Source: Actinomycetes bacterium (GTDB lineage: Bacteria; Actinomycetota; Acidimicrobiia; Acidimicrobiales; RAAP-2). Taken from it: a stretch of DNA of 57,939 nt. Shown here piece by piece: positions 7,747-26,120 of this stretch. The position numbers were made by a program, and so were the translations under genes. The DNA lies in NCBI GenBank assembly GCA_021844425.1, contig JAKBTL010000055.1, positions 1-57,939 on the forward strand, written 5' to 3'. The notes beneath the pieces are model-generated. The model did not search any database and was not told the origin of the DNA. It saw only the letters and a list, made by a program, of their open reading frames with translations. Within the stretch, counting starts at the first letter, position 1. The number at the start of each line of letters is the position of its first letter.

Positions 7747-7778
7747 CGCAGGCAAGGACGCCTGCGACGCAGAGGAGA
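7747..7778 (+). promoter_or_regulatory. Predicted CsrA-binding hairpin and Shine-Dalgarno site in the flbD leader
   Basis: CGCAGGC (7747-7753) and GCCTGCG (7760-7766) pair perfectly around the hexaloop AAGGAC, which fits the ANGGAN loop bound by CsrA/RsmE. A second GGA (7774-7776) lies in the ribosome site AGGAGA (7773-7778), exactly 18 bases from the first. Such paired sites let one CsrA block ribosome entry. Sequence and pairing are seen; binding is inferred from known CsrA targets. Confidence 0.6.
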
Positions 7779-7784
7779 CCACGG

Positions 7785-8114
7785 ATGATCGTCCTGAGCA
7801 CGCTCAAGGGGGAGAGCTTCGCCCTCAACGAGGATCTCATCGAGAAGGTCGAGGTCGGTTCGGAGACCCGGATCATCTTGACGACCGGCACCCGGTACAT
7901 CGTCGCCGAGTCGGCTACAGAGATCGCACGGCGGGTTCGGCTCGAGCACGCAGAGACCCAGGTCCTCGCCAAGCAGATCGACTCGCGGGCCAGGCAGCTC
8001 TCCATCATGCGGCCCGGGGAGGAGAGCGGCGGAACGAGAGGCGACGTCCTGCGGTTCGACAGGAGAACGGGCCTGGCCGACGGTCCCGCGCCTGGCGACA
8101 CGGATCGCAGGTAG
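7785..8114 (+). CDS. flbD: FlbD-family flagellar protein
   Basis: A 109-residue protein whose first 70 residues match the small FlbD family: MIVLSTLKGESFALNEDLIE, then a run ending IILTTGTRYIVAES. The C-terminal 40 residues are an extension not typical of the family. The start is ATG 7785, chosen over an upstream in-frame ATG at 7731 because the latter lies inside the promoter and 7785 has a good ribosome site (aggaga). FlbD proteins regularly precede motAB in actinobacterial and firmicute flagellar loci; their molecular role is poorly known. It is the first gene of the operon with motA, motB and fliL, and its leader carries the predicted CsrA sites. Confidence 0.85.
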   Translation: MIVLSTLKGESFALNEDLIEKVEVGSETRIILTTGTRYIVAESATEIARRVRLEHAETQVLAKQIDSRARQLSIMRPGEESGGTRGDVLRFDRRTGLADGPAPGDTDRR

Positions 8115-8208: not shown

Positions 8209-9000
8209 ATGAAGGACAAGCTCACCCCGCTCGCGATCGCCTTGGCGCTTGTCTGCATCTTTCTCGCGATGATCATGGACGGGGGCAGTCCTGCCGCCCT
8301 CTTCAAGCCCGCACCGCTCGTCTTGGTGTTCGGCGGCACCATCTGCGCCTCGGTGGCCGGCCTCTTGAAGCGGGACGTGAAGGGGCTCAAGGTGATCTTC
8401 AAGCAGGCGATGGGCCGTGACGTCGTGGATCTCGACTCATCGATCGACACGGTGGTGGAGCTCGCCCAAGTCGCCAAGTCCAAGGAAGGGCTGCTCGGGC
8501 TGGATAGCTACGTGAAGGACCTCGACGACAGCTTCTTGCAGCTCGGTGTACAGCTGATCGTCGACGGCGTCAGCACACTGGAGATACGTGACATCCTCGA
8601 GGGTGAGATCGCCGCGATGGAGGAACGCCATCGCAAGGGCATCAAGTTCTTCACCGACATGGGGGGATTCTCGCCCACCCTCGGGATTCTCGGAACCGTG
8701 ATCGGCCTCATCACCGTTCTCGGCCATCTCTCCAATCCCGGATCTCTGGGTGCTGGCATCGCCTCAGCATTCACCGCGACGCTGTGGGGTGTGCTCGCGG
8801 CCAACGTCTTCTGGCTCCCCATTGCCAACAAGCTCCAGCGCATCAGCGGAGTCGAGACTCAGGTGAAGACGATGCAGACCGAGGGCCTGCTCGCCATCCA
8901 GAACGGCAACACGAGCCGCATGGTGAGGGCGCGGATGGAGACTTTCCTTCCCGCTGGAGCCAGGGAGAGCACGGTAGTGAACGGGCAGGAGGCCGCGTGA
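8209..9000 (+). CDS. motA: Flagellar stator protein MotA
   Basis: A 263-residue inner membrane protein forming, with MotB, the ion channel that drives rotation. Four membrane segments are seen at about 7-25, 35-52, 150-172 and 184-206. The conserved prolines of the last two helices appear in FSPTLGILGTVIG and VFWLPIANKLQ, and a long cytoplasmic charged loop lies between helices 2 and 3. The start is ATG 8209 with gggagaag upstream. Its stop overlaps the motB start (GTGA), so the two are translationally coupled. Ion specificity (H+ or Na+) cannot be decided from the sequence alone. Confidence 0.95.
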   Translation: MKDKLTPLAIALALVCIFLAMIMDGGSPAALFKPAPLVLVFGGTICASVAGLLKRDVKGLKVIFKQAMGRDVVDLDSSIDTVVELAQVAKSKEGLLGLDSYVKDLDDSFLQLGVQLIVDGVSTLEIRDILEGEIAAMEERHRKGIKFFTDMGGFSPTLGILGTVIGLITVLGHLSNPGSLGAGIASAFTATLWGVLAANVFWLPIANKLQRISGVETQVKTMQTEGLLAIQNGNTSRMVRARMETFLPAGARESTVVNGQEAA

Positions 9001-13301: not shown

Positions 13302-13850
13302 ATGGCCGTCGAGACCTATCCGAAGAACCCGCCCTTCCTCGAGAGCCCCGACGCAACGCCGACCGAACCGGTGCTCTCCTTCGTGCGCCCGATCATCGCG
13401 TTCGAACGCTCCCGTCGCTACGCCGTGAGGCCGCTCAGCCTGCACTACGAGCCCTTCGCGTCCCTGGTGTCGCTCGACGTGCCGGGGCTCAATTTCGTCG
13501 TCGTGTCCCCAGGGCTCATCTTCGCCGACTACGTCTACGCCGTGCCCGAGCGTGACGTGGTCGAGCTCCGCCTCGGAGAGGTGGCGGATCCCTCAGAGAT
13601 CCAGACCCTCGCGATCGTGCGAAGGCGTGACGTGCCGTCTCCGGTCGTGAACCTGCGTGCACCGATCGTCATCAACCGCAAGCTCGGCCTCGCGTCCCAG
13701 GTGGTGCTCGAGGACGACTGCGGGTTCGGCTTCATGGTGCCGGTGGACGCGGGGAGCGCTCGCTGGACAGCAGGGCACCCAGCCGAGAACCCAGCCGAGC
13801 GCGTAGCCGGGCATCCCGGCGGGAAGGAGCCCTCTTCGTGCTCGTCCTGA
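13302..13850 (+). CDS. fliW: FliW flagellar assembly factor (CsrA antagonist)
   Basis: A 182-residue cytoplasmic protein. FliW signatures include LSFVRPIIAFERSRRY, SLHYEPFASLVSLDVPGLNF, IFADYVYAVPERDV, LAIVRRRDV and VNLRAPIVINRKLGLASQVV. In Bacillus and Campylobacter, FliW binds flagellin, and when flagellin is secreted it is freed to bind CsrA and release flagellin mRNA. Here the gene overlaps the csrA-like gene by 13 bases. The last 30 residues (Ala/Glu/Pro-rich, ending SSCSS) extend beyond the usual length of about 150. The start is ATG 13302 with ribosome site aggagaag. Confidence 0.92.
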   Translation: MAVETYPKNPPFLESPDATPTEPVLSFVRPIIAFERSRRYAVRPLSLHYEPFASLVSLDVPGLNFVVVSPGLIFADYVYAVPERDVVELRLGEVADPSEIQTLAIVRRRDVPSPVVNLRAPIVINRKLGLASQVVLEDDCGFGFMVPVDAGSARWTAGHPAENPAERVAGHPGGKEPSSCSS

Positions 13851-14434
13851 ACCGCCGCCCTGGGGAGTCGATCTACGTCGAGGGCGACATCGACATCGCC
13901 GTCCTCCGAGCGACCCACCAGACGGTGTGGCTGAGGATCGGCGGGGAGAGGATCACCCCCTCAGTCCTCCTCGGCGCGACGGCGCTGTCCGTCGAGGAGC
14001 TGCGCCTCGAGGTCGGTGCTCCGCTCAGGGCGTGGGTGGACGACCACGAGGTGCGCATCGAGGTCGCCAGCCGCGGCCACCTCTCGGTGGAGAAGCACGC
14101 GACGTTCTCCTTCCACTGTCGCCCTGGGCAAGTGGCCAAGGTAGGCGAAGACCTCGAGCTGGGCGTAGGGCCGACCGAGCGCGGCCACCCGTGCCTGACC
14201 CTCGGTGGGGAGGCGGTCGGCGCGCAGCTGCGCCTCGCCCTGATCCGCCTGGCCAGAAGCTGCGTACGTCTCGGCATCGACGCCCCCGGGCTGCGGGTGT
14301 ACCGCAAGGAGCTCTGGGAGGCGCTCGTCGCCGCCAACACTGCGGCGGCCGGCACAGGCGGGGACCTCTCCGACGCCCAGTCCCGGCTCACTCGTCCTCG
14401 TGGCGACGACGCGCCTCTTCGAGCTGCTTTCTGA
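13838..14434 (+). CDS. csrA: CsrA-family RNA-binding protein with duplicated CsrA-like modules
   Basis: A 198-residue protein, about three times normal CsrA length. Residues 1-36 match strands 1-4 (MLVLNRRPGESIYVEGDID, QTVWLRIGG) with RNA-contacting L4 and R6. Residues 142-167 match strands 4-5 plus helix (VRLGIDAP, VYRKELWEALVAAN), with R156 equal to R44 and N167 equal to the FliW-sensing N55 of B. subtilis CsrA. Between them are a second strand-5-like segment (71-87, VRIEVASRGHLSVEK, with K in place of R44) and a second strand-1-like segment (91-110, HCRPGQVAKVGEDLEL). It could be a single-chain version of the interwoven CsrA dimer with one good and one degenerate RNA surface. The GTG start overlaps fliW. 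The tail runs antisense to the gene ending at 14388. Confidence 0.85.
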   Translation: MLVLNRRPGESIYVEGDIDIAVLRATHQTVWLRIGGERITPSVLLGATALSVEELRLEVGAPLRAWVDDHEVRIEVASRGHLSVEKHATFSFHCRPGQVAKVGEDLELGVGPTERGHPCLTLGGEAVGAQLRLALIRLARSCVRLGIDAPGLRVYRKELWEALVAANTAAAGTGGDLSDAQSRLTRPRGDDAPLRAAF

Positions 14435-25238: not shown

Positions 25239-25286
25239 GCTCGCACATGGAGGTACGAGCTCGCTGCTATTCGACAACAAGGAGGA
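25239..25286 (+). promoter_or_regulatory. Two predicted CsrA sites in the flagellin leader
   Basis: GCTCG (25239-25243) and CGAGC (25256-25260) can pair around a loop containing ACATGGAGGT (25245-25254), a perfect match to the CsrA consensus ACANGGANGU. A second site, ACAAGGAGGA (25277-25286), matches 9 of 10 positions and covers the Shine-Dalgarno sequence. The GGA cores are 32 bases apart. This mirrors the two-site leader of B. subtilis hag. Binding itself is inferred. Confidence 0.65.
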
Positions 25287-25292
25287 ATACGG

Positions 25293-26120
25293 ATGTCTTC
25301 TCTTGTGGTGGACACGAACCTGGCGGCTCTCAACGCGCTCAACGTGTTGAACCAGACCGACGCCGCCCAGTCCCAGGCGATCAGCGAGCTGTCGTCGGGG
25401 CTCAAGATCCAGAGCGCTGCGACAGGACCTGCGCAGTACGTCATCGCCCAGAGCCTCGAGGCGCAGGCGAACGGCTACACGCAGGCGATCGCCAACGCCC
25501 AGAACGGAGTCTCGCTCATCCAGACGGCATCGGGGGCGCTCACCCAGATCTCGTCCATTCTCCAGACGATGGACCAGCTCGCGCTCACCGCGGCGACAAG
25601 CGCGACCCAGACATCGACGTCGCGCGCCGCCAACCAGGCAGAGTTCACAGACCTGGCGAAGACGATCACAAAGATCGCGACGACCACCAGCTTCGGGAAA
25701 TCCAAGCTGCTCACAGGGTCGTTCTCCGGGACGCTCCAAGTCGGGGCCTTCGACACAGCATCGACACAGATCAGCCTTGCGATCAGCGGCATGAAGCTGG
25801 CGACACTGAAGCTCACAGCATCGAAGATCACATCGGCCTCGACAGCACGAGCCGCCGTCTCGGCGGTCCAAGGCGCGATCTCGACCGTCGACTCGACGGC
25901 CGCGAAGGTGGGTGCCACGCAGAACGAGCTGAACGCGATCGTGGCGAACCTCACGGTCGGCCAGCAGAACCTCGCTGCTGCGAACAGCCAGCTGGTCGAC
26001 GTGAACATGGCGCAGGAGATGACCGCGTTCACGACCGACCAGATCCTGATGCAAACCGGCGTGGCCATGCTGGCCCAGGCCCAGCAGACCCCGTCGCTCG
26101 TGCTGAAGCTCGTCGGGTAA
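25293..26120 (+). CDS. fliC: Flagellin
   Basis: A 275-residue filament protein. It has the D0/D1 start (LNALNVLNQTDAAQSQAISE, LSSGLKIQSAATGPAQYVIA, NGYTQAIANAQNGVSLIQTA) and D1/D0 end (VGATQNELNAIVANLTVGQQ, QEMTAFTTDQILMQTGVAML). Only a short variable centre separates them, so the D2/D3 outer domains are essentially absent. The start is ATG 25293 with the strong ribosome site ggagga. Twelve of 35 threonine codons are ACA, mostly in the centre, which is also the likely glycosylated surface. It is transcribed alone, with a hairpin after it, and is the probable main target of FliW-CsrA control. Confidence 0.96.
   Translation: MSSLVVDTNLAALNALNVLNQTDAAQSQAISELSSGLKIQSAATGPAQYVIAQSLEAQANGYTQAIANAQNGVSLIQTASGALTQISSILQTMDQLALTAATSATQTSTSRAANQAEFTDLAKTITKIATTTSFGKSKLLTGSFSGTLQVGAFDTASTQISLAISGMKLATLKLTASKITSASTARAAVSAVQGAISTVDSTAAKVGATQNELNAIVANLTVGQQNLAAANSQLVDVNMAQEMTAFTTDQILMQTGVAMLAQAQQTPSLVLKLVG

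Follow-up and report, generated by a model that had tools for sequence, protein, structure and literature searches.

A long, internally duplicated single-chain CsrA-family protein with one conserved predicted RNA site, encoded next to fliW in a flagellar gene cluster

Based on profile comparisons and predicted structures, the 198-residue protein encoded next to fliW in the window (the whole stretch of DNA analyzed, 57,939 nucleotides) is a CsrA-family member of single-chain, internally duplicated and asymmetric build. In the textbook view, CsrA is an obligate homodimer that bridges two GGA motifs with its two identical sites, and each of its RNA surfaces combines L4 and R6 of one chain with R44 of the other. 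The long CsrA is probably a pseudo-dimer within one chain, forming a widened two-sheet sandwich with effectively one RNA site. The preliminary description knew of no CsrA of this form, and among open-access papers no description of a tandem, fused or duplicated CsrA was found.

The window represents a flagellar cluster, in which fliW, csrA, flhA, flagellin, flbD and motA were assigned by profile matches and flgK, flgL, fliD and others from inspection of the sequence; an Rfam scan of the window detected no RNA family. The enlarged csrA overlaps fliW, as had been claimed:

13302–13850, forward strand: fliW (Pfam FliW, E 1.2e-21), overlapping the csrA start by 13 nt
13838–14434, forward strand: long csrA, an open reading frame of 198 aa with a GTG start and the Shine-Dalgarno (SD) sequence AAGGAG about 12 nt upstream

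The csrA reading frame shows a good codon-position bias. Its product matches the Pfam family CsrA (PF02599) in two separate stretches (E 3.8e-13, above the gathering score) and reaches 44 bits with the NCBIfam csrA equivalog, which is below the cut-off of 70.1 bits. A single contiguous β1-β5-α protomer of about 60–75 aa was not found in the 198-aa chain, which comprises four partial modules. Because of these four partial modules and the missed NCBIfam cut-off, the protein was placed as a divergent form and not as an ordinary CsrA. Furthermore, equivalents of the RNA-site residues L4 and R6 (β1) and R44 (β5) are present in only one of the two expected sites, and the CsrA fold was recovered in predicted structures (RsmE on the model of a paralogue, termed B, and phage CsrA models for the window protein).

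As judged from profile comparison, the long CsrA shows a tandem duplication of a unit of about 88 residues, composed as follows:

13838–14098, forward strand: half 1 (residues 1–87; hhalign of half 1 and half 2, E 8e-10 to 4e-11)
14099–14362, forward strand: half 2 (residues 88–175; hhalign of half 1 and half 2, E 8e-10 to 4e-11)
13838–13954, forward strand: module U1, CsrA β1–β4 (residues 1–39), with the RNA residues L4, R6 and R7 (E 8e-16 against the canonical profile)
13967–14071, forward strand: module U2, CsrA β3–β5 (residues 44–78), degenerate, with D68 at the R44 position (E 0.003)
14105–14212, forward strand: module U3, CsrA β1–β4 (residues 90–125), with C94 at the R6 position (E 2.5e-8)
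14213–14353, forward strand: module U4, CsrA β3–β5 and α1 (residues 126–172), with A149, P150, R156 and N167 (E 1.2e-15)

The profiles of residues 1–87 and 88–175 aligned free of gaps (probability 97.3, E 8e-10), and with a deep member of the family added the half-half score was 59, compared with a maximum of 23.2 for shuffled columns. In the register of canonical CsrA, residues 1–39 correspond to 1–39, 44–78 to 19–53, 90–125 to 2–37 and 126–172 to 13–60. According to these matches, each half would run through β1-β2-β3-β4 and then β3'-β4'-β5, one hairpin being repeated. The match of U2 is weak by itself, though above the shuffled maximum, and when the two halves are aligned U2 runs co-linear with U4. 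Residues 40–140, for which a profile check had been proposed, are CsrA-derived (E 5.7e-7 against the CsrA profile, with the shuffled-column control far below), and a foreign domain in this stretch was rejected. In place of the two CsrA modules initially suggested, profile comparison yields four partial ones; both strand-1-like segments (1–10 and 89–98) and the strand-4/5-like segment at 142–157 were recovered, and the other strand-4/5-like segment, previously assigned to 71–87, is placed by the profile alignment at about 54–68 (RLEVGAP..). With four partial modules per chain, each sheet is expected to be wider than in the CsrA dimer.

The close relatives of the 198-aa protein are other long CsrAs only. 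In the search of related genomes, a long CsrA was detected in 12 of the 13 genomes of the window's genus (the window genome counted), as well as in two further genera of this family; surveying the class brought one more, from a different family (genome G433). The resulting alignment of 21 rows covers the one genus, the two other genera of its family and the one other family. The suggestion to look for the same length in relatives was thereby followed, and long CsrAs recur in several genera, with 20 homologues besides the window protein. The window genome encodes two of them, A (13838–14434) and paralogue B on contig C85, which are 37% identical. Canonical CsrA was found neither in this genome nor in the other genomes with a long CsrA; in the rest of the class, the canonical single CsrA is the usual form. 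A phylum sample of 396 genomes returned canonical matches and no further long CsrA, and one scan of viral contigs, addressing a viral origin, revealed no relative. In the tree, A, B and the deep pair L019 and G433 are well-supported groups; support for A' (L011–L013) is weak.

For the assignment of RNA sites, the swapped arrangement of CsrA was assumed, with site 1 formed by β1 of half 1 and β5 of half 2 and site 2 by the reverse combination. In CsrA, the site lies at β1/β5' with R44, recognizes hairpins that present an ANGGAN hexaloop, as defined by NMR, and allows bridging by two sites (PMC7652899). Across the 21 rows, the site-1 positions 4, 6, 7, 149, 150 and 156 are invariant and position 154 is V or I; L4, R6 and R7 are located on the N-terminal β1, and A149, P150 and R156 toward the C-terminal β5. 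The equivalence of R156 and R44 and the intact R6 + R156 pair, both proposed beforehand, are thus borne out by invariance. Variability at the site-2 positions 92, 94, 95, 61, 62, 66 and 68 is average or high. The second pair had been thought to consist of a shifted strand 1 and K86; the profile register gives C94/R95 and D68. K86 as an equivalent of R44 was rejected, being out of register and unconserved (K/T/N/R/A/S/V/L/M/G at position 86 across homologues). From the pattern of conservation, the second RNA site appears to have decayed and the first to have been kept, and the simplest history would be an ancestor with two sites, one of which was later lost.

Alternatively, the second edge may have been retuned for weak binding of the SD GGA via R94/R95 and backbone contacts, resulting in asymmetric two-site binding. 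Position 94, which is C or V in A, is indeed arginine in B and A' as well as in the deep members L019 and G433, which also keep R67/R68, and all six rows of subfamily A have arginine at position 95. However, the R44 position of half 1 (D68 in the window protein) is occupied by D/E/G/V throughout the main clade, and RsmN binds with more than 1000-fold lower affinity once its equivalent of R44 is lost (PMC3791407), so that a retuned edge is regarded as rather improbable.

AlphaFold2 models were obtained for the window protein (pLDDT 85.8, pTM 0.79) and for paralogue B (pLDDT 86.3, pTM 0.78). Both are confident all-β single chains with 15 strands in identical order and a C-terminal helix, which spans residues 157–170 in A and 157–164 in B. 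RsmE (2JPP) residues 1–53 superpose on residues 42 to 165 of the B model (52 aligned residues, 1.9 Å, 31% identity); by hand count all 16 identities lie within 127–166, and RsmE β1 appears to lie on the model strand 42–47. This position is as expected from a CsrA dimer sandwich widened by one hairpin per half. Strand pairing was deduced from DSSP order, the range of the superposition and homology, using the sheet order of the CsrA dimer as reference (PMC3791407); the predicted order is β5A-β2B-β3B-β4B-β3'B-β4'B-β1A for one sheet and β1B-β4'A-β3'A-β4A-β3A-β2A-β5B for the other. The comparison of a predicted CsrA chain with the CsrA dimer, which had been recommended, came out in favor of the proposal with respect to the confident all-β chain and the superposition of RsmE on the paralogue.

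In a viral structure library, a phage carbon storage regulator was among the best matches of the window model (Foldseek probability 1.0). Searches of this model against the PDB with Foldseek and VIA listed unrelated β-rich folds of low confidence, with no CsrA chains among the matches listed, and for the B model CsrA chains rank low (Z 3.1), with unrelated β-barrels, mostly at 4–5 Å, placed higher. At the level of model searches, the low rank or absence of CsrA chains counts against the pseudo-dimer reading. The single-chain pseudo-dimer with one strong and one weakened site, as put forward in the preliminary description, draws good support from the duplication, the AlphaFold2 models, the RsmE superposition and conservation; the residues named for its second site are not.

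The long chain might also be a protomer that homodimerizes, so that two intact sites would again connect hairpin and SD as in an ordinary CsrA. The leaders of the predicted targets do retain a pair of GGA motifs spaced within bridging reach, and edges of β-sheets commonly pair, but the strands of both sheets are all supplied by one chain and the AlphaFold2 monomer is confident without a partner, which makes a homodimer unlikely. RsmN/RsmF of Pseudomonas (4KJI, 4K59), also a CsrA relative, was re-threaded through an insertion and is a 71-aa homodimer with a helix between β2 and β3 and two sites (PMC3791407). An RsmN-like topology with a separate RNA site in each half of the long CsrA has very little probability: the expected pairs would be R6 + D68 and C94 + R156, and R6 and R156 are kept but those partners are lost. 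Moreover, the RsmN type lacks a C-terminal helix, whereas the long chain has no β2-β3 helix and carries its helix at the C-terminus (157–170). Finally, a frameshift, assembly artefact or decaying gene, a risk raised at the outset and conceivable in that the named relatives are metagenome-assembled genomes, can be dismissed given the 20 homologues across several genera, the invariant motifs and dN/dS values against the nearest A copies of 0.09–0.12 for the whole protein and 0.08–0.09 for residues 40–140, which argue against both a frameshift and a pseudogene.

All nine genomes that encode an A, A' or L019-type CsrA also have FliW; it is absent from the five B-only genomes, as are FlhA and flagellin. 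The single oddity implied by the earlier account thus gives way to a family in which some paralogues are linked to FliW and others are free of it. N167 had been aligned with the FliW-sensing N55, and profile alignment and conservation across the 21 rows agree with this assignment: the asparagine persists in A, A' and the deep members, whereas B has lost it. N55 of CsrA takes part in FliW binding in Campylobacter and Bacillus (PMC7829508), and in B. subtilis the ratio of FliW to CsrA dimer is near 1:1 and set by coupled translation (PMC6529632). With fliW and a helix bearing the conserved N55 equivalent present, the FliW-CsrA checkpoint, in which FliW binding lifts flagellin repression, would by homology operate here.

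Genome G433 (L070, L094, L116) represents an exception to FliW linkage, being flagellated and encoding a long CsrA with the asparagine kept; neither FliW nor, in the leaders of flagellin and flbD, any AnGGAn hairpin was detected in it. Paralogue B (L031:1498-2073; L075, L101, L106, L107) is convergent to adjoining genes of the alpha-amylase family/CBM48, which are of glycogen branching/debranching type (checked with Pfam in G002 and similar by inspection in G000, G001 and G012). A carbon-storage role of B is possible; near these glycogen-type genes, no conserved AnGGAn hairpins were found.

The flbD-motA and flagellin leaders in the window contain predicted hairpins of the type recognized by CsrA:

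7747–7766, forward strand: predicted CsrA-site hairpin with loop AAGGAC (7754–7759) and covarying stem, flbD-motA leader
7785–8114, forward strand: flbD, predicted regulated gene (Pfam FlbD)
8209–9000, forward strand: motA, downstream of flbD (Pfam MotA_ExbB)
25239–25260, forward strand: predicted CsrA-site hairpin with loop AUGGAG (25247–25252), flagellin leader
25293–26120, forward strand: flagellin, predicted regulated gene (Pfam Flagellin_N at 25308–25721)

Of 10 flagellin leaders, 6 contain an AnGGAn hairpin of four or more pairs, compared with 0.08 expected. Those of the window and G001 have a single mismatch, which in the window is C·A, and covariation of the window flagellin hairpin is weak. 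Each of the eight A/A' genomes checked has the flbD hairpin, which was not found in G023, G433 or most genomes with canonical CsrA; its stem keeps 91% of pairs, with a covariation score of 0.61 compared with 0.27 for shuffled alignments (0/500). The hairpin of the flbD-motA leader, independent of that before flagellin, is a candidate for a new CsrA target. The spacing between hairpin and SD GGA amounts to about 32 nt (flagellin) and about 19 nt (flbD), which is within reach of two-site CsrA bridging, so that one site as well as a strong plus a weak site would be compatible with these leaders. This layout suits a CsrA with two sites and, like the weak match of U2 and the mismatch and weak covariation of the window flagellin hairpin, counts against the one-site pseudo-dimer. 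In addition, pairing between the flagellin SD AAGGAGGA and codons 2–5 (TCTTCTCTT; window 25278–25308) is predicted for each of the four subfamily A leaders, and this pairing may hide the flagellin start site.

For the pseudo-dimer, the following mechanism is proposed. Profile comparison suggests that a CsrA in which the β3-β4 hairpin had been repeated underwent tandem duplication and fusion, and together with the predicted structure it suggests that one polypeptide would fold as the widened two-sheet sandwich of a CsrA dimer. As conservation and superposition indicate, the N-terminal β1 and the C-terminal β5 would meet in one canonical AnGGA-binding site, and the opposite edge, devoid of R44 and, in subfamily A, of R6 equivalents, would leave an effectively one-site protein. 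FliW presumably binds the only C-terminal helix, which carries N167 and adjoins the intact site, so that one FliW could switch off one chain. By analogy to B. subtilis, binding of the long CsrA to the AnGGAn leader hairpins would keep flagellin and the flbD-mot operon repressed until FliW is released by the export of flagellin. The fliW-csrA overlap would couple translation and set the FliW:CsrA ratio, and a one-helix, single-chain CsrA would reach 1:1 directly. For the complete account, i.e., a natural monomeric one-site CsrA that arose by module duplications followed by loss of the second site, is bound 1:1 by FliW and has a sister copy free of FliW and flagella, likewise with only one RNA site, the chances are considered evenly balanced.

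Compared with CsrA/RsmA/RsmE (e.g., RsmE 2JPP and Geobacillus CsrA 5DMB), the long CsrA shares the β-strand modules, L4/R6 and the A36-P37/R44 signature, the C-terminal FliW helix, linkage to fliW and AnGGAn hairpins in the flagellin leader. Those proteins are homodimers of five-stranded protomers of about 60–80 aa with two equal sites, whereas the long CsrA has 198 aa in one chain, four partial modules, predicted widened sheets and one intact site. One working RNA site on a two-fold scaffold is also reported for CsrA dimers engineered to carry R44A in only one of the two chains (Mercante 2009, cited in PMC7652899); those are artificial, whereas the long CsrA would be natural and genetically fixed. 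A tandem canonical CsrA in genome G477 (L071:3309-3740, 143 aa) likewise carries two CsrAs per chain, the first apparently without R44, so that again one complete site remains, but both are of normal width; FliW, FlhA and flagellin were not detected in this genome. Several contigs of genome G259 contain about ten short open reading frames each matching CsrA β3-β5 only, a pattern that resembles a repeated element with part of a CsrA in it.

The long CsrA would offer a natural way to ask why CsrA depends on two sites. As a single chain with one conserved site that is the genome's sole kind of CsrA, it makes the need for bridging in repression directly testable, and each RNA site can be mutated alone. 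Moreover, the single chain would fix the FliW:CsrA stoichiometry within one polypeptide, and the deep members with second-site arginines allow the loss of the second site to be traced.
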